From an uncultured Poribacteria bacterium (GTDB taxonomy: Bacteria; Poribacteria; WGA-4E; WGA-3G): DNA of 64,000 bases. Shown one piece after another: positions 3,516-51,203 of the stretch. Below the pieces are notes generated by a model. The model made no database searches. It was not told the origin of the DNA and saw only the letters and a program-made list of their open reading frames with translations. The stretch covers positions 4,207,200 through 4,271,199 of the forward strand of contig OX639973.1 of the NCBI GenBank assembly GCA_951828385.1, given 5' to 3'. A program made the position numbers and the translations under genes. Numbering within the stretch: the stretch's first letter is position 1; every line of letters starts with the position of its first letter.

Positions 3516-4721
3516 CTATCGATCAACTTCTCCCATCACGATATCAATACTGCCGATAATTGCGATAATATCTGCGACCATCAAGCCTCGACTGAGTTCT
3601 TGTAGCGCGCTCAATGCACTGAAGCAGGGTGAGCGTCCTTTGAGGCGTACTGGCTTCGGCGTGCCGTCACTGACAATGTAGAATCCGAGTTCACCGCGTG
3701 GAGCTTCACTACGGAAATAGATTTCACCTTTAGGTGGACGGACGGCTTTTAAATCTGCCATCACAGGCCCCCCAGGAAGTCCTTCCGCTAAAATCTGTCG
3801 GACAATCCGGACAGACTCTTTCATTTCATCCATACGTATTTTATACCGACTCCAGCAGTCACCGACAACCGCGCCCAACTCTGGCACATCTACAGCGACG
3901 GGGACATCAAAGTCAAATCTGTCATAGATAGAGTAGGGTTCATCTCGCCGGAGATCCCAATCCACACCAGAACCGCGGAGGTTAGGACCGGTTGCACCAT
4001 AGCTGAGTGCCATCTCCGCTGACATGACAGCGACCCGCATCGTGCGTTCTGTGAAGATACTGTTTTTTGTCAAAAGTTCGTTGTATACGTCAATCAACGG
4101 TTCAAAATAGTCTAAAAACTGTTCGATTTCGTCCAAGAAGTTCTGTTCGGCAATAGATCCGGGTTCCAGCGGAATGATTTCAGAGACACCACCGATACGG
4201 ATATAATTATACGTGAGCCGCGCCCCGCAGACTTTCTCAAAAAGGAGGAGCAGGCGTTCTCGGTCGCGGAAGGCGTAAAGGAAAGGGGTGAATGCGCCGA
4301 GGTCCATCCCGTAGGTTCCAAAAGAGAGGAGATGGCTTGCGATACGGTTTAATTCACAGATCAGCACGCGCAAGTATTCCGCCCGTTCTGGCACCTCAAA
4401 TGCCTTGCTTTCATCCGCTGCCATCAATTTCTCGACAGCGAGGCAGAACCCCCAATTTTGGTTCATCGCCGCCACGTAATCCATGCGGTCAGTGAACGGA
4501 ATGATTTGGGGATAAGAGAGGTTCTCCGAATGTTTTTCAAAACAGCGATGCAGGTAACCGATGTGGGGGATTGCTTCCCGAACGATCTCACCATCCAATC
4601 TCAATTCCAAGCGTAACACGCCGTGTGTACTTGGATGCTGAGGTCCCATGTTGACGACCATCTCATCGGCGAAAGGTTTTAGTTCTATAATTTTGCTTTC
4701 AGTCTGTTGTGTGCTTTCCAT
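3516..4721 (-). CDS. nuoD: NADH-quinone oxidoreductase subunit D (49-kDa)
   Basis: Peripheral-arm subunit related to the large subunit of NiFe hydrogenases; it shapes the quinone pocket next to cluster N2. Hallmarks are GPQHPSTHGVLR (about 26-37), the HRCFEK stretch near residue 58, the NWGF region, and the ending DIVMGEVDR, which is close to invariant. Length is 401, normal for a stand-alone NuoD that is not fused to NuoC. It has its own strong promoter upstream (4890-4918) and a leader of about 160 nt, separating it from nuoABC. Confidence 0.97.
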   Translation of the reverse strand: MESTQQTESKIIELKPFADEMVVNMGPQHPSTHGVLRLELRLDGEIVREAIPHIGYLHRCFEKHSENLSYPQIIPFTDRMDYVAAMNQNWGFCLAVEKLMAADESKAFEVPERAEYLRVLICELNRIASHLLSFGTYGMDLGAFTPFLYAFRDRERLLLLFEKVCGARLTYNYIRIGGVSEIIPLEPGSIAEQNFLDEIEQFLDYFEPLIDVYNELLTKNSIFTERTMRVAVMSAEMALSYGATGPNLRGSGVDWDLRRDEPYSIYDRFDFDVPVAVDVPELGAVVGDCWSRYKIRMDEMKESVRIVRQILAEGLPGGPVMADLKAVRPPKGEIYFRSEAPRGELGFYIVSDGTPKPVRLKGRSPCFSALSALQELSRGLMVADIIAIIGSIDIVMGEVDR

Positions 4722-4740
4722 AATGTCGGTTCTGCAACGT

Positions 4741-4805
4741 TTTTCTAACTTACCTTGCGGTTAAACAACGGGATCCAAGCTTTCACGGTTATCTCTTAAA
4801 TCCGC
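4741..4805. repeat. Intergenic element B, second copy in the nuoD leader
   Basis: This element shares 25 exact bases with element A at 1106-1130 and the 12-mer TCTTAAATCCGC at its other end. The centre is unrelated to A. It is transcribed as part of the nuoD leader if the 4890-4918 promoter is used. It contains the CCGCAAGGTAA motif (minus strand), here about 30 bases from the nuoD ATG rather than immediately before it. Confidence 0.7.
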
Positions 4806-4889
4806 TTTCCACTTCGTTCCAAGCTGCGTTTCTTTTTAGATTGGACTTACGCGTTTTCTTCTATTTTTAGACTTTGCCACTATATATAT

Positions 4890-4918
4890 ATGATACCATT
4901 TTTGCGGTGTAATGTCAA
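4890..4918 (-). promoter_or_regulatory. Sigma70-type promoter for nuoD
   Basis: On the minus strand a perfect TTGACA box (4918-4913) is followed after 17 bp by TATCAT (4895-4890), with an AT-alternating tract just downstream. Transcription would start near 4883 and read into nuoD. It lies in a 425-bp gap inside an operon that is normally continuous. Confidence 0.8.
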
Positions 4919-4968
4919 ATCTTAGCCTTGTTTTCTCAGAGAAAGATGGTGTCGTATTTCTATAGGAA

Positions 4969-4992
4969 AAATGTTACACCAGTGTAACATTT
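4969..4992. promoter_or_regulatory. Perfect 24-bp palindrome upstream of the nuoD promoter
   Basis: The arms AAATGTTACAC and GTGTAACATTT are perfectly complementary around a 2-bp centre. One more right-arm half-site (GTGTAACATTT) occurs at 5083-5093, and GTGTAA also overlaps the -35 box of the nuoD promoter (4908-4913). This has the form of a dimeric regulator's operator with an auxiliary half-site. I cannot name the regulator family. The remaining gap from 4722 to 5145 shows no convincing gene. Confidence 0.7.
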
Positions 4993-5145
4993 CATGTTCA
5001 GCATTTGCGTCTACAAATCAGCGTCCCACCTAAGTTTAGAGGTGTTTTGCGTCTGATGTTGCGTTACGAAAAAAAGTCAAAAGTGTAACATTTTTCGTGT
5101 CGTGTAGCAACTCCATAGGCGACGAAAATTCGATATCCCAATACC

Positions 5146-5631
5146 CTAATATGGCACCCGCATACCGCGATAGAATTCAGGCTCCTTATAATCTTTGCGT
5201 AGGGGATATCCCTCCCAATCATCGGGGAGTAAGATGCGGCGGAGATCGCTGTGTCCCTCAAAGAGAATTCCGTAAAGGTCATAAGCTTCGCGCTCGTGCC
5301 AATCTGCGGTTTTCCAGATATGCGAGACGCTTGGGAGGTGCGGGTCGGTTTTCGGGACTGCCGTTTTTAGAACCACGCTATGCCGGTGTTGCATGGCATA
5401 GATGTGGTAGACGACAACGAGTTCCTCATCTTTAGCACTTAAATCTGCGCCACTGAGACACATCAAGGAATCAAACGCCAATGTGTCAGTTTCGGCGAGA
5501 TATTGGCACACATCGGCGATTGCTGAGGGCGCGACGCTAATGCTCGGGTCGCCAGCGAGTTCAGTATCAAACCCGAGGACAGCTTCTCCGAACTGCGCGG
5601 TGAGTGCTTCATAGATTTCTTGGGGTTTCAC
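5146..5631 (-). CDS. nuoC: NADH-quinone oxidoreductase subunit C (30-kDa)
   Basis: Hydrophilic complex I subunit without cofactors that packs against NuoD. The family signature is visible as WHEREAYDLYGILFEGH (about 111-127) followed by LRRILLPDDWEGYPLRKDY. It has 161 residues, short but in range for the stand-alone protein. It is the last gene of the nuoA-B-C segment and is followed by the long regulatory gap before nuoD. The gap to nuoB holds a two-copy 28-bp repeat. Confidence 0.96.
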   Translation of the reverse strand: MKPQEIYEALTAQFGEAVLGFDTELAGDPSISVAPSAIADVCQYLAETDTLAFDSLMCLSGADLSAKDEELVVVYHIYAMQHRHSVVLKTAVPKTDPHLPSVSHIWKTADWHEREAYDLYGILFEGHSDLRRILLPDDWEGYPLRKDYKEPEFYRGMRVPY

Positions 5632-5650
5632 GTAAATTCTTACTCCATGG

Positions 5651-5705
5651 TCGCGACTACAAGTCGCTCCTACAATGATCGCGACTACAAATCGCTCCTA
5701 CCTTT
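5651..5705. repeat. Two-copy 28-bp tandem repeat between nuoB and nuoC
   Basis: Two adjacent units start at 5651 and 5679 and share TCGCGACTACAA(G/A)TCGCTCC. The first unit can fold into a hairpin with arms GCGAC and GTCGC around TACAA. A related ACAAACCGCTCCTACAATAG tract lies at about 39196-39215, so this is probably a dispersed intergenic repeat. Confidence 0.65.
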
Positions 5706-5720
5706 GAATGGGTTGATATT

Positions 5721-6326
5721 TTAGGCGGTGCTTTCGGGACTGTCGCTTTCTGCGGTTGGAGCGTCTGCTTCAGCCACCGCTTCGATTTCTTCTTGCTCGT
5801 ACCATTCTGTCTTAGTAAAGAGCCTTTTCAGAAATGGAACATGTTCGCGTTTGGCAACGGTCTGCGTTTTAATCTTTTCTTGTAGTTTGAGTAGCCCTTC
5901 AATGAGTGCCTCTGGGCGCGGTGGACATCCGGGTACATAAACGTCAACAGGGATAATCCGATCAACGCCTTTGAGAACGTGGTACCCGTGTTGCCAATAG
6001 GGGCCGCCGCTGGTGGCGCAGCTGCCCATAGAGATGACGTATTTCGGTTCCGGCATTTGTTCATAAAGCCGTCTGATACGTGTCGCCATTTTGAGTGTCA
6101 CCGTGCCGGAGATGACCATAAGGTCGGATTGGCGCGGTGTCGCGCGCGGTACACCTGCCCCGAACCGGTCGAGGTCATAGTTAGAAGCAGCCGTCGCCAT
6201 AAATTCAATGGCACAACAAGCGAGTCCGAACGTCATAGGCCAGAGTGCTGAAGAGCGTGCCCAGTTGGCGACAGCGTCAACCGAAGTGACAATAACGTTT
6301 TTGTCCAGTTTTTCATCAATTATCAT
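5721..6326 (-). CDS. nuoB: NADH-quinone oxidoreductase subunit B (cluster N2)
   Basis: Carries the N2 4Fe-4S cluster, the last electron carrier before quinone. The four expected ligands are present: the adjacent pair C37-C38 in [10 protein letters not shown]103 in GSCATSGG and C134 in VPGCPPRP. I chose the ATG at 6326, which follows GGAGGAAC. The longer reading frame upstream only covers nuoA in another phase. The gene overlaps the nuoA end by 11 bp. The last 30 residues are an acidic Glu/Ala tail not needed for the fold. Confidence 0.97.
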
Positions 6327-27891: not shown

Positions 27892-30800
27892 TTATGTGAG
27901 GGCATAAACGCCGCGCCGGATCCTCACAATCTCACCCGTTTCTACAAGATGGGTGAGTTCGTTTTTAATGGCACCCGGATTGCCCTGGATTGCTTCAAGG
28001 ATTTCAGATGTTGTTTTCTCTCCATCTGAGAGTAGATCGAAAATCTGGGCGTGAAATGGAACACGCTTGATTTTAGTGCCCCGCAATCTCATCAATATAC
28101 GGTTTGCTTGCGCCTTAGAAACACCGAGCAAATACTCAACGCGTTTTCGGCTCCACGACGCATCCATATTCGCGTATTCTGCCTCGTAATTCTCGCGTAT
28201 CCGAATCGTTTCTGAAAGTTCATCCAACCCACCAGCGATCTCAAAGTCTTCCCAATCGAACAATTTTGTCTCTGGTGCATCGGTAACAGAGGGTATCCGT
28301 AAAGCCGTGTTGAGAATCAGCGTTTTGCCTGATGCCTCATTGAATCCAGCGATACGGATGATCTGTATCAGGGCACCGATAGCATTCTGTTCGTAGAGTT
28401 CTTGTATCCGTTGATCTTCAAATTGATAAGGATTCATTGTGAGGTTGTAATTTAACGGTCTCACTTGATTTCCAAACAGGATTTTCGCTTGTTCCCAGAT
28501 GAATTTCGGGGGCCAATAAGGCGTACCAACGATCCAGACAACATCAGCCGCTTCAAAGATAGATTGTAGAACCTTGATGCGGTCGTAGTAAGCGTCATCC
28601 GCTTCGAAAGTGGATCGCAAATCCTCAGGATGTGCTGGGGTGTCTTTGATAAGATCGTGGTAACTAATAATCTTATCGAAAACATTTTTCAACATCAGCC
28701 TCGCGCTTGTGCTTGAGATAACGACATGATTGCGATCTGGGTGTTGCTTCATTTCTTGATAGATCCCGTGAAAAAAGCGACTCGCAATTTCAGAAAGGCT
28801 AAACGCATCCCAATTAACTTCGTAGTTCGCGATTGCGTAGGCGATATGCGGCGCGCTTCGCAGCTGAAAAGACTTGTTCTCTGAAAGCGATGTCTCCTGC
28901 GATTCAACCCACCTGACGGAAACAAGTTCTTCAGGAAACACGTTTTTGAAATAATCTTCCGAGAACGCTGGCGATATGAACACAAGTTCCTGAATCTCTG
29001 GATGAATTCTTGGGGGTAACCAGAACCGCAAAATTCCGTCATCGACAAACATCGGAGCATCCGTATCGCGCGTGTAATACGCAAAGAATGTCTTCAACTG
29101 ATGCCATAATGTCCACTCCGGGTCGCGATATACATTTGGTGCCTTCTCTATGTTTTCTGGGGTTGATATATCCAAAACCCCAAGCTGGATTGCGCTATCA
29201 ATATCTATTGCAGTCCTGTTGCCATCTTCATTTGTACAATTTACCTGACACATTTGCTGAACAATGCTATCTTCTAACCCTTCAAACGCCTGAACAACAG
29301 TACGAATTCGCTTCGCGATATCGCCGTGTTGACTATCTGTAATCCGAATAGCGTTTAGCATTGTTTTTGCGAATTGACCCAACGCTGCACGACTCCAATT
29401 AATGAGCCAGCCTTCAAGAATTTCAGTTGACAGATGATGCTGTGAAAAGAGTTTCGTGAGCTGGGATTCAGAATCGTTTATAATACAGATTCGATCAGGA
29501 GCAATCAACATATCAACAAACGCAGCATACCGCCGATCCAGAAAGAAGTTCGGAATATCGGATACGATGGCCTGCTTCTCCTTGAGCGTTTTGAATTGAG
29601 AAAGATACCCGTGCGCTTGACACGCGTCATAAACTGGACAATTCGGACAGAGACTCCTATTCGGATCACTGCCTTTCTGCTCTAAGGCATCACATCTCTC
29701 GGCATCTTCGCAGACGTTTCCCCGCGCGAAAGGATTCTGCATCCGTTCAGCAATAGGTATCCACTTCGCCTGTTCCCAGCGATGGTTTCTCGGTTTCCAA
29801 CATCCCACTGAAACCCCCTGCCTTTCATAATACTGCTCTGCATCTTCAGTATCGTGTGCGTTATTAGCATTGATCCATATAGGGGCAGTATCAAGAAATG
29901 TGGTTTCGATTTCACGTTTCTTTTCAGTGCTCATTGAACCCGTGATAATCCCAAGAATGCGGGCTTCCTGTTCAGCGAGATTCCTTGCCGCCTCCACTGC
30001 AGTGTGTTTCACTTTTTCGAGGAGGGGTCTTGGTCGTTTAATGCCAATCGGAGAAAGCTTACCGCGTTGCACTGCAAGGATACTTTCATTCACAACTTGT
30101 TCTGTCTCTAACGATTCTATGACATCGAAATCGTCGAGATCCTGTGTATCCACGAGTGCTTCATCAGTCAAGTCTAATTCCGATATTGGAGCAGGTTCAT
30201 GTAGCAATTCTCGTAAGACATCGAGAAACGCAAAAAGCACGTCTTTAGAAATGATGGGTGGGTTTAATAGGCTGCCCTTAAGAATCTCGTAGCGAGCATC
30301 CCAACGGTTGTAGCCTTTATCCGCAAGGATGCGTACATAGACATCTCGATCGCGAGGGTGATCTGAGGGTAGATGCTTATGAACATACTGTCTTGCGTCC
30401 GTTGTGTTCGGGTGAAGATAGTCCGGCACTCGGCACGAAAACCTCAAGCCTCCGCCCTTGAGTAAGGTGAGTAGTGGGTTCATAACAGCGTTGACGAGTG
30501 CGTCCACACATGCAACAACGGCGTCGGGTGCATCTTGGATCGCTTTGTAGGGGAACTCGATGTCGTGCCAGTTAGCACCGTCGCGGGCAGATGGCATTCC
30601 TGTATAGATCTGAATGCCCCACGATGAGAACCATCGTCTCGAGCTCCAGTTGAGTGTGCCTTGTCGTCTTAAGAGGCGCGTGCCACCACGATACGCTGGC
30701 CCCTGATCGAAGGGTGCCTGTCCGATCGGCATAAACGAAATATCTGCCTGTTCGATGTCATGCAAAAGCAATGGATGCCGACGCGCGCAATGAACGATAT

Positions 30801-30912
30801 AGTGGTAAGGGTGTTCACCGTGCAACGTGGGTGAGACAATTGTCTCCCGCTGCTGCAGTTTCTTTTGTCGCCGTTCGTGGCATTGTTGGATAATATCTTT
30901 CACGGATTCCAT
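27892..30912 (-). CDS. Large protein of unknown function with cysteine cluster and winged-helix C-terminus
   Basis: A 1006-residue protein I cannot assign. I start it at the ATG at 30912, nine bases after GGAG; an ATG at 30927 lacks a site. A five-cysteine block C401, C407, C422, C425, C431 (CEDAERC then CPNCPVYDAC) resembles the iron-sulfur insert of XPD/DinG-type helicases. Downstream, IINDSES (about 478-484) sits where DEAH would be, GTPY is at 796-799 and ALIQIIRIAG at 847-856. No Walker A GxGKT is visible. The last 90 residues (TTSEILEAIQGNPGAIKNEL and following, ending VRIRRGVYAL) look like a winged helix. It has a perfect consensus promoter. Confidence 0.75.
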   Translation of the reverse strand: MESVKDIIQQCHERRQKKLQQRETIVSPTLHGEHPYHYIVHCARRHPLLLHDIEQADISFMPIGQAPFDQGPAYRGGTRLLRRQGTLNWSSRRWFSSWGIQIYTGMPSARDGANWHDIEFPYKAIQDAPDAVVACVDALVNAVMNPLLTLLKGGGLRFSCRVPDYLHPNTTDARQYVHKHLPSDHPRDRDVYVRILADKGYNRWDARYEILKGSLLNPPIISKDVLFAFLDVLRELLHEPAPISELDLTDEALVDTQDLDDFDVIESLETEQVVNESILAVQRGKLSPIGIKRPRPLLEKVKHTAVEAARNLAEQEARILGIITGSMSTEKKREIETTFLDTAPIWINANNAHDTEDAEQYYERQGVSVGCWKPRNHRWEQAKWIPIAERMQNPFARGNVCEDAERCDALEQKGSDPNRSLCPNCPVYDACQAHGYLSQFKTLKEKQAIVSDIPNFFLDRRYAAFVDMLIAPDRICIINDSESQLTKLFSQHHLSTEILEGWLINWSRAALGQFAKTMLNAIRITDSQHGDIAKRIRTVVQAFEGLEDSIVQQMCQVNCTNEDGNRTAIDIDSAIQLGVLDISTPENIEKAPNVYRDPEWTLWHQLKTFFAYYTRDTDAPMFVDDGILRFWLPPRIHPEIQELVFISPAFSEDYFKNVFPEELVSVRWVESQETSLSENKSFQLRSAPHIAYAIANYEVNWDAFSLSEIASRFFHGIYQEMKQHPDRNHVVISSTSARLMLKNVFDKIISYHDLIKDTPAHPEDLRSTFEADDAYYDRIKVLQSIFEAADVVWIVGTPYWPPKFIWEQAKILFGNQVRPLNYNLTMNPYQFEDQRIQELYEQNAIGALIQIIRIAGFNEASGKTLILNTALRIPSVTDAPETKLFDWEDFEIAGGLDELSETIRIRENYEAEYANMDASWSRKRVEYLLGVSKAQANRILMRLRGTKIKRVPFHAQIFDLLSDGEKTTSEILEAIQGNPGAIKNELTHLVETGEIVRIRRGVYALT

Positions 30913-31098
30913 TGAGGAAATCTCCATAGGGAATGGACGTTATTGGGTTTTTGCGAACCTGAAAACGACTTGAGAGGGGCGTAAAAAAATAGCACACTTA
31001 ACACTGTATGTTAAAGGGTGGCGAAGCGCGTCTCGCTCATTTCTTTTTCTCAGGTTCGTTGCTCCAGATAAAGTAGATGCCATCGTACCACTAAAGTC

Positions 31099-46564: not shown

Positions 46565-47899
46565 ATGTACACGAACGAATCTGATATGCGGTTGAGAACC
46601 GTACTGACTAAGAGGGGCAAGTCGCAATGTAGCTCTATCATCGTCCGGTGTGTGAGTCGTCTGTTAGCGATTGCCCTAATTTTTTTCACCGCGCTTTCCG
46701 CGCTACATGCCCAAACGGCAGAACTCGGCGACATCCAAGGCACAGTTATTGACAGAAAACTCGAAAAACCGATCGCTTCGCATCCTGTAACGCTCACGAT
46801 TCATAAGACCGACACCGTTGAGACGCAAGAAACAACGACAGATGAAAATGGAAACTATCGCTTTGCGGAATTGCCGCTGGATCCGAGCGTCTACTATACG
46901 GTTTCAACTGTCCATGAAGATACCGACTACACGGAGAAGGATCTGGTTCTGTCCACTTGGGTTCCGAATCTCAAGATTGACTTTGATATTGGGGCGTTTA
47001 CGGATGACACTGCGCAAATCCGAGTCAAAACGTATAGTTTCATTATTGGGCCTCCGCCTGCAGATCACGCGCCGGATGGTGCTGTCACAGTCGCTGAGGC
47101 GATTGGGATTGAAAATCTGAGTACGCTCCCTTTTAGAACAACGCACGGTACGCAAAAAGTCGGGGTAAATTTAACACTGCCAAGAGGTGTTGAAGGGCTT
47201 CAACCGCATTCGCCAAACCTTACGATGGACCCTAACACCAATCAAATCCTCCTCAAAACGCCATTACCGCCAGGAGAATCGCACTTAGGTTACGAGTACA
47301 TCTTTCACATTGAAAAAGGTAGGTTGGATTTATCGCGTCGTTTGAATTTTAACACGAACCAATTCTTTGTTTTTGTTCCTGAAGGTATTGGTATAGTGCC
47401 GCGTGGCAAGTTTTTCGGTGCCCCGAGACGCGAACAAATCCATAATAATGTATATCTAATATATGAGAGCGATGCGAATCAAACGTTCGCAGCCGGTAAA
47501 AAGATTGACTTGGCACTGAATATAAATATGGGTGCGGCTCGCGGTGCTTTACCGGGGCAGACCTCCAATAATTTGGGACAGTTAATTTTTATCGCTGTCG
47601 CGGCGGCATTGACGGGTGGATTCTTTGTAGCGGCACTTTTCAAACTCCGCGCAGCCAGAAATACTACAGAATCTGATACGGATGATACATCAACACCTCC
47701 AGATGCAGGTTGGCTTCTTAAACTGAACCCTGATGATCGCGAACATGTGCGCGTCGCACGGCTTGAATTTATAACGCATCTTGATGATAAGTACGAGAGG
47801 CAAGAAATCTCGGAGCGCGTCTACAAACGATTGCGCCGGGAGCAAACGGAACGCCTCACCACACTCTTAGAACAACAAAAAAGGGGAAATAATGCATAG
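46565..47899 (+). CDS. Secreted carboxypeptidase-regulatory-fold protein with membrane anchor
   Basis: A 444-residue envelope protein of unknown function. The signal segment (about 26-50, ending LHAQ) precedes a carboxypeptidase-regulatory-like beta sandwich (GDIQGTVIDRKLEKPIASH). An extended beta region follows up to about 330. One membrane helix (about 337-360) leads to a cytoplasmic tail with a charged helical end (KYERQEISERVYKRLRREQ). Its place right after ccmHI and before two HEAT genes suggests a role in envelope or cytochrome assembly, but this is only positional. Confidence 0.75.
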   Translation: MYTNESDMRLRTVLTKRGKSQCSSIIVRCVSRLLAIALIFFTALSALHAQTAELGDIQGTVIDRKLEKPIASHPVTLTIHKTDTVETQETTTDENGNYRFAELPLDPSVYYTVSTVHEDTDYTEKDLVLSTWVPNLKIDFDIGAFTDDTAQIRVKTYSFIIGPPPADHAPDGAVTVAEAIGIENLSTLPFRTTHGTQKVGVNLTLPRGVEGLQPHSPNLTMDPNTNQILLKTPLPPGESHLGYEYIFHIEKGRLDLSRRLNFNTNQFFVFVPEGIGIVPRGKFFGAPRREQIHNNVYLIYESDANQTFAAGKKIDLALNINMGAARGALPGQTSNNLGQLIFIAVAAALTGGFFVAALFKLRAARNTTESDTDDTSTPPDAGWLLKLNPDDREHVRVARLEFITHLDDKYERQEISERVYKRLRREQTERLTTLLEQQKRGNNA

Positions 47900-48287
47900 C
47901 AAACACCATATCGCTGATTTGATAGTCATGTTGGGTCATGTAGACGAAAACGTTCGGGACACCGCGAAGGCAGAATTGATTGCCATAGGTAAACCGGCTA
48001 TTCCGCAGCTCATCGATGTTCTTACCCAAGAGTGCTGGCATATATCTGGGTATGGTGCCGAATTTTACACGCATATCGAAGAATCCGCTATCCCTGTTTA
48101 TATGGAACAGATGGCAAATAACGCTTCGGAGGTCTTGGCAGAAATCGGAGAGTCCACAGTCCCCGCGCTGACGGCGGAACTCACCAGAGCCGAGCGCGAG
48201 TTTTCGGAATGGTTTTATAAGTATTTACGACCCGAACAGACGGACCGTCTTATCACGATGTTGGCGTATGTTAAGAAAGGCGAGTAA
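47892..48287 (+). CDS. HEAT-repeat protein (small)
   Basis: A 131-residue helical-repeat protein. Repeats of the form DENVRDTAKAELIAIGKPAI then PQLIDVL, and NASEVLAEIGESTVPALTAE, are the HEAT/PBS-lyase-type pattern. It overlaps the preceding gene by 8 bp and its stop directly abuts the next HEAT gene. Such proteins are adaptor scaffolds. No catalytic residue is seen. Confidence 0.8.
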   Translation: MHSKHHIADLIVMLGHVDENVRDTAKAELIAIGKPAIPQLIDVLTQECWHISGYGAEFYTHIEESAIPVYMEQMANNASEVLAEIGESTVPALTAELTRAEREFSEWFYKYLRPEQTDRLITMLAYVKKGE

Positions 48288-48896
48288 ATGGACAACGAAA
48301 GTATTGTAGCCGACTTAATCTATGATTTGTCAGAGTTGGATGACGATATCCGTGAGGCTGCAAAGAAAGAGTTAGTTGCGATTGGTGAACCTGCGATTCT
48401 GCAACTCGTTGAGGCACTCGCTGATAATCTTGGGGATGTGGTTGAACAAGCCACTGATATCTTGGCTGCCATCGGTGAACCGGCAATACCTGCGCTTATT
48501 GATGAGATGGCGATAGCTGAGCGGTACCATGCGCTCGCTCTCGGTGATACGCTGAGCCGCATAGGCGAACCCGCGGTACCGGTTTTGGTTGAAGCGTTAT
48601 CTGATAAACTCAATGAAGAGTTCCGCGAATATGCGATTCGTGCGCTTAACCTGATGGGAAGTACGGCAATTCGTGCGATACCTGCGCTTATTCAGGCTTT
48701 GAGCGATCCGTCGGAGGATGTTCGGTCTTATGCTGCCTACACGTTTGCTAAAATGGAGAGCGCAGCAGCGGAAGCGGTGCCTGCGCTTATCAAGGCACTT
48801 GCTGATGAAGCCGAAGAGGTCCGAAATCATGCGGCTTTTGCATTAGAAAAAATTGGAACCCCGGAAGCGAAACAGGCACTTGAAGCGTTTAGGTAA
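48288..48896 (+). CDS. HEAT-repeat protein
   Basis: A 202-residue protein made of five or six HEAT repeats, each ending in a variant of AIGEPAIPALIDEMA or AVPALIKALADEAEEVR. Conserved Asp/Arg positions in DDDIREAAKKELVAIGEPAI and DEAEEVRNHAAFALEKIG are regular. It begins at the base after the previous stop. It is likely a protein-protein scaffold. The methyltransferase cassette starts 19 bp downstream, so these genes may share a transcript. Confidence 0.85.
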   Translation: MDNESIVADLIYDLSELDDDIREAAKKELVAIGEPAILQLVEALADNLGDVVEQATDILAAIGEPAIPALIDEMAIAERYHALALGDTLSRIGEPAVPVLVEALSDKLNEEFREYAIRALNLMGSTAIRAIPALIQALSDPSEDVRSYAAYTFAKMESAAAEAVPALIKALADEAEEVRNHAAFALEKIGTPEAKQALEAFR

Positions 48897-48915
48897 GTGT
48901 AGTGGAGGAGTTTTT

Positions 48916-49755
48916 ATGGCAGAAGAAAAAAAACACAGTCGAAAACATGCGAATGAACTTGATGGTAAAACATGGCTGCGATATTCGGTCTCGGTATGGA
49001 GTGATATTAGAAAAACAAAGGAGGAGATTGAACTAAAACATCCTGCTATGTTCCCCGGTATGCTTGCAAAGCGTCTTATTGCGTGCTTTACACCTCCCGA
49101 AGCCTCTTTAATATTAGACCCCTTTGCCGGGGTTGGGTCCACATTACTTGCAGCGAAGGAGTTGGGTAAGGATGCTATCGGTTTAGAGATTTCTCCAGAA
49201 TTTGTGCAGATCGCTGAAAGGCGCGTAGACCAGATGCTGCCATTTGCAGGGCAAACTGATGTTCAAATCCATACTGCCGACTGTCGAGAACTTTATCGGT
49301 ATGTTTCTCCAAACAGTGTAGATATGGTAGTGACATCGCCTCCGTATTGGGATATCCTTATGCAAAAACGGACTGCGGATAACAAGGAACAGCGGGGTTA
49401 TGGAGAAGCTTCAGCAGATTTAGGAAAGATTCAGAATTATGAGAAATTCTTATTAGAACTTCGCAAGGTTTTCGAGCAGGTTTACAATGTGATGAGACCC
49501 AACAGTTACTGTTGTGTCATTGTTATGGATTTACGGAAAAAGAACCGTTTTTACCCATACCACATTGATATTTCCGAGTTTATGCAGGAAGTTGGTTTTA
49601 TTTTCGACGACCTCATTATATGGAATCGAGGGCAAGAGTACAACAATTTGCGTCCCCTGGGATATCCGAGTGTATTCCGAGTCAATAAAGTTCATGAATT
49701 TATCTTGATTTTTCAAAAATCCAAGGAGGGGAGTTTGTCTGGTGAGCTTAATTGA
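48916..49755 (+). CDS. DNA methyltransferase (probable N4-cytosine/N6-adenine type)
   Basis: A 279-residue SAM-dependent DNA methylase. The SAM motif I is LDPFAGVGST (about 66-75) with GLEISPEF after it. The catalytic motif IV is TSPPYWD (about 138-144), which favours N4-cytosine or N6-adenine methylation. Motif I comes before motif IV, unlike the common beta class. An N-terminal SVWSDIRKTKEE and HPAMFP region precedes motif I. The start at 48916 follows GGAGGAG. It overlaps the next gene by 14 bp and is the likely protective member of the three-gene set. Confidence 0.92.
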   Translation: MAEEKKHSRKHANELDGKTWLRYSVSVWSDIRKTKEEIELKHPAMFPGMLAKRLIACFTPPEASLILDPFAGVGSTLLAAKELGKDAIGLEISPEFVQIAERRVDQMLPFAGQTDVQIHTADCRELYRYVSPNSVDMVVTSPPYWDILMQKRTADNKEQRGYGEASADLGKIQNYEKFLLELRKVFEQVYNVMRPNSYCCVIVMDLRKKNRFYPYHIDISEFMQEVGFIFDDLIIWNRGQEYNNLRPLGYPSVFRVNKVHEFILIFQKSKEGSLSGELN

Positions 49756-50704
49756 AGATATAGACTATATTGATGCGGATGTTGCCTACCTTCTTGGGTT
49801 GATCACAGCAAGAGGGAAAATCTCAGAAGATTCTGATGTCCGGCGAATTATCATAGAATTCCCCTATAAGTCTCTTGAAATTGAAGGAATCTCCGAGCGT
49901 TTTGATACTGATAACTCGATAAAACTTGGCTTGCAACAAATCCAAGAGCGTATTTTGGATGTAACAGGTGCTGATGTAAGTATCAGGAGTACGGATAGCA
50001 GCATTACACTTGTACTACGCTTTTTTAGGAATACGATGATATGGCGAAACATTTTGATGCACACGCAGGAAGCTACTGGATACGAACATTTTCGAGTTCC
50101 AGATATATTCTTTTCTTCAAATATCCTGACAGACTGGAAGCGAGAGTATCTTAGAGGTTTCGCAGATGTTGCAGGTAATATCAGGCGGGCTAATCGTTAT
50201 GTTGACGGTTCTGACCGTGTTCGTTTGGATGTCTTGAACTATCAGACCAATTGGGAAATGCCGGTCCTGCTCTGCACTTTATTAGAGGAGCATTTAAAAA
50301 TACCCATTCAATTGATTACTTGGGGACATCCAAACATGGGAAGAAACTTTAGAGAACATCAAATCAACATTTTTGCTGTCCCTTTTGGAGAAATCGGTTT
50401 TTCATTTCCGCACAAACAAGCATTACTTCAAGAGTTTATAGCGCATAATAAGGAACATTATCCCAAGAAAGTTTATAATCCGTGTCTCGGTAAAAAATTA
50501 TTGGGCAAACGAAAACGAAAACCAAAGGACAGCGGGGAAAATGATGACAGACTTGACCCGAAGATAAAAGGACAACATTTTAATGCTTACTGGCAAATTT
50601 GTAAAAAACTTGGTTGTCCACGTACGCCAAAAATCCTTGAACAAGAAGGGTGGCAGATTAACAAGCGACAGGCATTAGAGGAAGTCCCAGAAGATGAAAT
50701 ATAA
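49742..50704 (+). CDS. LAGLIDADG-like protein without catalytic acids
   Basis: A 320-residue protein with two LAGLIDADG-type helices: YLLGLITARG (16-25) and YLRGFADVAG (136-145). In homing endonucleases the eighth motif residue is the catalytic Asp/Glu. Here it is R24 and A144, so DNA cutting through this fold is unlikely, while sequence-specific binding remains plausible. A basic tail (GKRKRKPK, about 255-262) and a helical end follow. The GTG start at 49742 lies in the methyltransferase gene after AAGGAGG, and the end overlaps the nuclease gene by 11 bp. Confidence 0.8.
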   Translation: MSLIEDIDYIDADVAYLLGLITARGKISEDSDVRRIIIEFPYKSLEIEGISERFDTDNSIKLGLQQIQERILDVTGADVSIRSTDSSITLVLRFFRNTMIWRNILMHTQEATGYEHFRVPDIFFSSNILTDWKREYLRGFADVAGNIRRANRYVDGSDRVRLDVLNYQTNWEMPVLLCTLLEEHLKIPIQLITWGHPNMGRNFREHQINIFAVPFGEIGFSFPHKQALLQEFIAHNKEHYPKKVYNPCLGKKLLGKRKRKPKDSGENDDRLDPKIKGQHFNAYWQICKKLGCPRTPKILEQEGWQINKRQALEEVPEDEI

Positions 50705-51203
50705 ATCTGAAAAGGATATGTATCCTGATGTGTGTCAATGGTTAGAGGATTTTCTAAAGGACCGCTTCCGACAGACTGAAGTTGATGTTCACGCCCTGCC
50801 GCATACCGCAATTTCCCGTTTTCTCAGTACATACAACCGAGGTAACTTTCCTGGGGAGTGGGTTACATGGAACATAAAAGTTGATGTTGTTGGATTTGTA
50901 CATCACGCCGATAAACCGACCGATCTGGTTTTTGTAGAGTGTAAAAACACCAAACTTACGCTGGCACACCTTTCCCAACTTCTGGGATATAGCCGTATTG
51001 CTCGACCCACATATTCTTTTTTACTTTCCGCAGTAGGTTTTTCCGCATCACTTGTCTCCTTGCTTCAAGAATATCAGCGGCGCGATGTGCTGGAATATCA
51101 TTGGGAACCCGGAAAATTACCTCGGCAGGTGATTGTAGCGCAATGGGAAATGACTACCCGTAATCTAAATAGACACACTATGATCGGAGGTGCGGGTTTG
51201 TAA
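50694..51203 (+). CDS. PD-(D/E)XK nuclease-like protein
   Basis: A 169-residue protein with the core of a restriction-type nuclease: D64 in NIKVDVVGF and E82-C-K84 in LVFVECKN, the D...ExK arrangement, with a preceding E7/D8 helix (KSEKDMYPDVCQWLEDF). No DNA-recognition domain is evident, so specificity may come from the upstream LAGLIDADG-like protein. It is the third gene of an overlapping cassette with the methyltransferase. A 257-bp gap with a strong promoter follows. Confidence 0.82.
   Translation: MKYKSEKDMYPDVCQWLEDFLKDRFRQTEVDVHALPHTAISRFLSTYNRGNFPGEWVTWNIKVDVVGFVHHADKPTDLVFVECKNTKLTLAHLSQLLGYSRIARPTYSFLLSAVGFSASLVSLLQEYQRRDVLEYHWEPGKLPRQVIVAQWEMTTRNLNRHTMIGGAGL

Follow-up and report, generated by a model that had tools for sequence, protein, structure and literature searches.

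A putative two-part restriction–modification cassette in Poribacteria containing a LAGLIDADG protein that lacks its catalytic acids

Introduction

Among the closest described relatives of the arrangement reported here are the Type IIT enzymes BbvCI and Bpu10I, together with BslI, in which two adjacent genes make up one endonuclease and are accompanied by the associated methyltransferase(s). Both subunits of these enzymes are restriction-endonuclease proteins. Restriction enzymes and LAGLIDADG homing endonucleases have been treated as separate worlds, which the family described below would join. A 2023 paper states that restriction–modification (R-M) systems with LAGLIDADG proteins have not been described, and such proteins are unmentioned in a 2014 review of Type II enzymes (PMC4081073). 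Two precedents for DNA reading by members of the homing-endonuclease lineage are WhiA, a relative that binds DNA without homing (PMC3781837, PMC11701221), and a man-made chimera, cited in PMC3857828, that joins PvuII to an I-SceI without catalytic activity. A full-text search of open-licence papers other than preprints for LAGLIDADG with restriction, defence or recognition-subunit terms returned no such system in titles or abstracts. The preliminary description of the locus, made from the sequence by itself, knew of no described system with this split; no earlier account of a dead LAGLIDADG protein in the role of restriction reading subunit appears to exist.

Here, we analyse a cassette of three genes from the chromosome of an uncultured, sponge-symbiotic member of the Poribacteria (assembly GCA_951828385.1). 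The cassette is probably an R-M system with a two-part endonuclease, in which a dead LAGLIDADG protein would serve as the reader and a small PD-(D/E)XK nuclease as the cutter.

Results and discussion

Gene layout and genomic setting

The cassette occupies positions 48916–51203 of a 64 000-nucleotide stretch of contig OX639973.1 (the window) and sits in a 6.66 Mb genome consisting of a single contig. All three genes lie on the forward strand and encode a DNA methyltransferase (MTase; 48916–49755, ATG start, 279 residues, preceded by GGAGG at 48904–48908), a double LAGLIDADG protein without catalytic acids (49742–50704, GTG start, 320 residues, preceded by AAGGAGG at 49723–49729) and a small PD-(D/E)XK nuclease (50694–51203, ATG start, 169 residues). 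The first two genes overlap by 14 bp (49742–49755) and the last two by 11 bp (50694–50704), and these coordinates match those first reported for the trio exactly. As is characteristic of Type II R-M systems, methyltransferase and putative endonuclease genes are linked. Comparison of the junctions among related loci shows that the overlap between the LAGLIDADG and nuclease genes is steady (4–11 bp in 13 of 14 loci), whereas the MTase/LAGLIDADG junction ranges from overlap to gap and the 14 bp overlap is absent in the other genus and outside Poribacteria. This difference suggests that the tight unit is that of reader and cutter.

On the 5′ side, the cassette is preceded by two HEAT-repeat genes (47892–48896), which are retained in genomes without the cassette, and on the 3′ side it is followed by a 2-oxoacid:ferredoxin oxidoreductase pair. 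The same genes flank the site in related genomes whether the trio is present or absent; the position is thus fixed and the presence of the cassette variable. An Rfam search of the locus gave no intron or other RNA element. Elsewhere in the window, an open reading frame of 1011 residues on the reverse strand (27892–30927) had no Pfam match at an E value of 1e-5.

The methyltransferase

The MTase matches the Pfam family N6_N4_Mtase (PF01555) with an E value of 6e-36. Motif I (DPFAGVGST) precedes motif IV (TSPPYWD), as had been noted when the gene was first called a DNA methylase, and the latter motif suggests that the product would be N4-methylcytosine or N6-methyladenine. A relative with 58% identity to the MTase of the window is found in another genome (G067; L079:3087–4728), where it is followed by a different open reading frame of 212 residues with a PD-(D/E)XK-like stretch (PDF...LEYK) and no Pfam match; here the same type of methylase has another possible nuclease beside it.

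The LAGLIDADG protein

The first LAGLIDADG motif (LLGLITARG, residues 17–25, 49790–49816) corresponds to a modelled helix spanning residues 12–24 and the second (LRGFADVAG, residues 137–145, 50150–50176) to a modelled helix spanning residues 130–144. Alignment places Arg24 (codon 49811–49813) and Ala144 (codon 50171–50173) at the catalytic positions, as originally proposed. Among 15 aligned relatives, the catalytic pair is Arg/Ala in the eight Poribacterial proteins and Asn/Thr in the seven others, and Asp or Glu occurs at neither position in any of them (0/15). The acids are therefore gone in both branches and have been replaced by different residues. A conserved Asp142, two residues before the catalytic position of the second motif, does not fall on that position when the motif glycines are placed in register. 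The second repeat contains 24 invariant residues and the first contains six.

Structure models were calculated with AlphaFold, using alignments without rows from annotated public records, and were then compared with the PDB using Foldseek. The AlphaFold2 model of the LAGLIDADG protein (pLDDT 73, pTM 0.79), in which some parts are of low confidence, shows a helix–strand–strand–helix–strand–strand–helix topology repeated twice, which is the double LAGLIDADG fold. All 50 of the 50 best matches are LAGLIDADG homing endonucleases or maturases; the best is I-AniI (E value of 5.5e-08, probability 1.00) and others include bI3, I-DmoI and I-SceI. The Foldseek TM-scores are modest, at about 0.4–0.6. At the sequence level, neither this protein nor the nuclease gave a significant match in Pfam, NCBIfam, PADLOC, PHROGs or the PDB sequences (phmmer and profile searches), and a search for a helix–turn–helix (HTH) domain in all members of the LAGLIDADG family found no match.

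The nuclease

The nuclease carries an active site of the form D64...E82-x-K84 (50883–50945), and Asp64, Glu82, Lys84 and Gln95 are invariant in 20 of 20 sequences. Its AlphaFold model (pLDDT 89.8, pTM 0.88) has the mixed α/β fold of PD-(D/E)XK enzymes. The best Foldseek match is MspJI (E value of 2e-04, probability 1.00), with weaker matches to AF1548, EndoMS, AspBHI, EcoT38I and BamHI. Matches to the RNA polymerase subunit Rpb5 were set aside as a distant fold resemblance. With the acids absent from one protein and the D-ExK residues invariant in the other, family membership indicates that the LAGLIDADG protein should not cut DNA and that its neighbour should.

The preliminary description had stated both that the nuclease possesses this core and that it lacks a recognition domain. 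The former stands; the latter is something we infer rather than observe. Restriction enzymes the size of PvuII exist, and PD-(D/E)XK enzymes of about 160 residues, PvuII among them, can read DNA unaided. A better argument for a dependent cutter than a missing domain comes from genomes that carry an intact nuclease without the methylase, which are considered below.

Relatives outside Poribacteria

A scan of the genome collection with the window's protein as the query gave matches in Poribacteria only. Two Lactiplantibacillus plantarum plasmids (27 and 26% identity) also carry the LAGLIDADG–nuclease pair, as do two gut phages and four contigs from IMG/VR; the distinct loci known outside Poribacteria number only seven. 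A profile built exclusively from the non-Poribacterial members recovers the full-length Poribacterial genes with E values of 1e-35 to 1e-43, which makes the homology of the two branches secure. The nuclease used alone as the query returns the same four contigs, plasmids and phages as the LAGLIDADG query, and outside Poribacteria it is found only adjoining a LAGLIDADG gene. The co-occurrence of the trio that the preliminary description led one to look for thus extends to plasmids, phages and viral contigs.

The class of methyltransferase changes around the same LAGLIDADG–nuclease pair. One partner set consists of an EcoRI-type m6A methylase and a C5 methylase; L. plantarum and the phages encode the two as a fusion, and two of the contigs (L090 and L093) have them as separate genes. 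The other consists of an Eco57I-type m6A methylase and a homologue of the MTase of the window (L086 and L087). The window MTase and the second MTase of L086 share 48% identity, and the corresponding LAGLIDADG proteins 29%, so that the same three-gene order is common to Poribacteria and these two contigs. Each non-Poribacterial set therefore combines one clear adenine methylase with one enzyme of another class. The Poribacterial trio has a single MTase, a point against the R-M reading proposed below.

Two of these loci have further neighbours. In L093 (2868–3944 and 6764–9421), a gene for a NOV_C-domain protein lies between the C5 methylase and LAGLIDADG genes and a helicase-like gene lies downstream, which suggests that this cassette is within a larger defence island. 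In one gut phage (L084), a GmrSD (Type IV) restriction gene (4202–6295) is immediately 3′ of the cassette, forming a defence cluster on the phage.

The spread of the family bears on whether the LAGLIDADG gene might be the decayed remains of a homing endonuclease that inserted itself between M and R, now inert or merely structural. LAGLIDADG elements do insert in phage methylase genes (PMC9957025). Here, however, each of the 15 distinct intact LAGLIDADG genes lies downstream of a methyltransferase gene and is followed by the nuclease gene, and none of the homologues was found alone or, by the Rfam search, in an intron. The setting is not that of an intron, an intein or a free-standing homing gene; the gene lies in an operon, flanked by M and nuclease genes, and this order recurs at about 30% identity in Poribacteria, in phages and in the Lactiplantibacillus plasmids. 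The clustering of invariant residues in the second repeat does not resemble random loss, and the gene is under purifying selection (dN/dS of about 0.05–0.15, as for all three genes among the Poribacterial trio genomes). We give this explanation very little credence. Purifying selection, model-supported folds and recurrence in other phyla together argue that the arrangement is not a product of chance.

Distribution and loss in Poribacteria

The pattern of loss was surveyed across the phylum in 85 genomes. Eight have a full-length LAGLIDADG gene, one (G052) has a copy that runs off the end of its contig, and three retain remnants of it. The MTase gene accompanies it in every Poribacterium with a full-length or contig-cut copy (9/9), and a methyltransferase does so in all seven cases outside the phylum. 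Seven of the eight genomes with a full-length LAGLIDADG gene have an open nuclease frame; in the eighth (G082; L004:6953–7459) codon 59 of the nuclease gene is an in-frame TAG, its sole interruption, and the other two genes are open. In three genomes (G063, L008; G043, L078; G047, L073) the MTase frame is open and the LAGLIDADG and nuclease genes have mostly been lost through internal deletion or decay. An R-M system would be expected to decay in this order, with the MTase outlasting the others.

Six genomes (G058, G042, G049, G076, G039 and G041) have an intact nuclease without the LAGLIDADG gene or this MTase. In these nuclease-only loci (L066–L071, i.e. L066, L067, L068, L069, L070 and L071) the gene is directly behind a HEAT-repeat gene and the active site is intact. 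The alleles have a different N-terminus of about 15–20 residues, of similar type in two genera, and form one supported group per genus. A profile search for a hidden LAGLIDADG relative across these genomes found none; a 31% identical relative of the MTase, with an internal stop codon, lies elsewhere in one of them. The nuclease alone thus does not need this methylase.

These loci weigh on two further explanations. The small nuclease could be a Type II enzyme in its own right, about as large as PvuII and reading DNA by itself, with the LAGLIDADG protein regulating the operon in the manner of C-proteins or of WhiA, a relative of homing endonucleases that is known to regulate transcription (PMC3781837). 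The persistence of the nuclease by itself in six genomes, under purifying selection, would fit a self-sufficient enzyme; yet a site-specific enzyme of that kind would be expected to be lethal without its methylase, whereas a reader-dependent cutter would not. A regulator is also at odds with the lack of an HTH match, with the position of the LAGLIDADG gene between M and R and its coupling by overlap to the nuclease, and with the joint loss of the LAGLIDADG and nuclease genes from the MTase-only genomes. We regard this explanation as unlikely, and rank both it and an orphan homing gene below the reading of the cassette as an R-M system with a two-part endonuclease. Alternatively, the nuclease could be a Poribacterial maintenance or repair enzyme that was joined secondarily to an unrelated unit of M and LAGLIDADG genes. 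Its occurrence at the same chromosomal place in two genera, intact and selected, is what a host nuclease would show, but outside Poribacteria it occurs only beside the LAGLIDADG gene and many Poribacteria have nuclease remnants only, or none; the chance that this explanation is correct seems slim.

The nuclease-only alleles have dN/dS values of about 0.07–0.17 in all but one pair, with synonymous divergence reaching above 1. The nuclease may therefore serve a further purpose or work with a different partner, and selection on it where the LAGLIDADG protein is missing is the main weakness of a simple model of reader and cutter.

Proposed mechanism

In the proposed R-M system, the LAGLIDADG protein would have lost its two catalytic acids and kept its twofold pseudo-symmetric DNA-binding fold. 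It would bind the target site and recruit the small nuclease, the two forming a two-gene restriction endonuclease. The MTase would modify the same site, so that the cell's own DNA is neither bound nor cut and incoming unmodified DNA is. In the relatives with two MTases of different kinds, protection would come from both, each strand of an asymmetric site having its own enzyme. If an adenine methylase and a methylase of another class both serve the site of the pair, that site would be asymmetric, and an asymmetric site could be read by a single-chain LAGLIDADG protein. The preliminary proposal of an R-M-like system with the LAGLIDADG protein as the DNA reader thus gains support from sequence and predicted structure, from the phylogenetic range of the family and from the pattern of its losses; complex formation, DNA reading, the cutting of unmethylated DNA, the sharing of one site by MTase and endonuclease and the asymmetry of that site are the steps that we infer. 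Direct testing is possible, since the L. plantarum plasmid version, as in the p9 cassette (NZ_CP060181.1), sits in a culturable organism.

On balance, we lean towards a LAGLIDADG fold that has been domesticated as the stand-alone specificity subunit of a new restriction class, able to act alongside varied MTase sets and dispersed on plasmids and phages. If this is true, a dead homing enzyme can turn into a restriction specificity subunit and the restriction repertoire gains a DNA-reading fold. The cassette would also be a natural pair of reader and cutter with parts that may be exchangeable, a counterpart of the engineered chimeras of dead meganucleases and restriction enzymes.

Comparison with known systems

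The LAGLIDADG protein of the cassette shares its predicted fold and its two motifs per chain with I-AniI, I-DmoI and I-SceI, and differs from homing endonucleases in having no catalytic acids, no intron and no homing context. WhiA, in contrast to it, carries an HTH, regulates transcription and is not coupled to any nuclease. The nuclease domain of MspJI is the nearest solved fold to the predicted model of the cutter, but MspJI acts on modified DNA and has a reading domain of its own. Type I R-M systems use a separate reading subunit, HsdS, as is proposed here; there, however, it serves both M and R and the enzyme has an ATP-driven motor, whereas the cassette has none, and a search of its three proteins for HsdR motor and HsdS domains found neither. 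BbvCI, Bpu10I and BslI resemble the cassette in gene arrangement and differ from it in that their subunits are restriction-endonuclease proteins throughout. The closest parallel is the PvuII/I-SceI chimera as presented in the citing paper, in which a dead LAGLIDADG reader directs a PD-(D/E)XK cutter; in the chimera PvuII keeps its own specificity, whereas here the two parts are encoded by two natural genes accompanied by a methylase.
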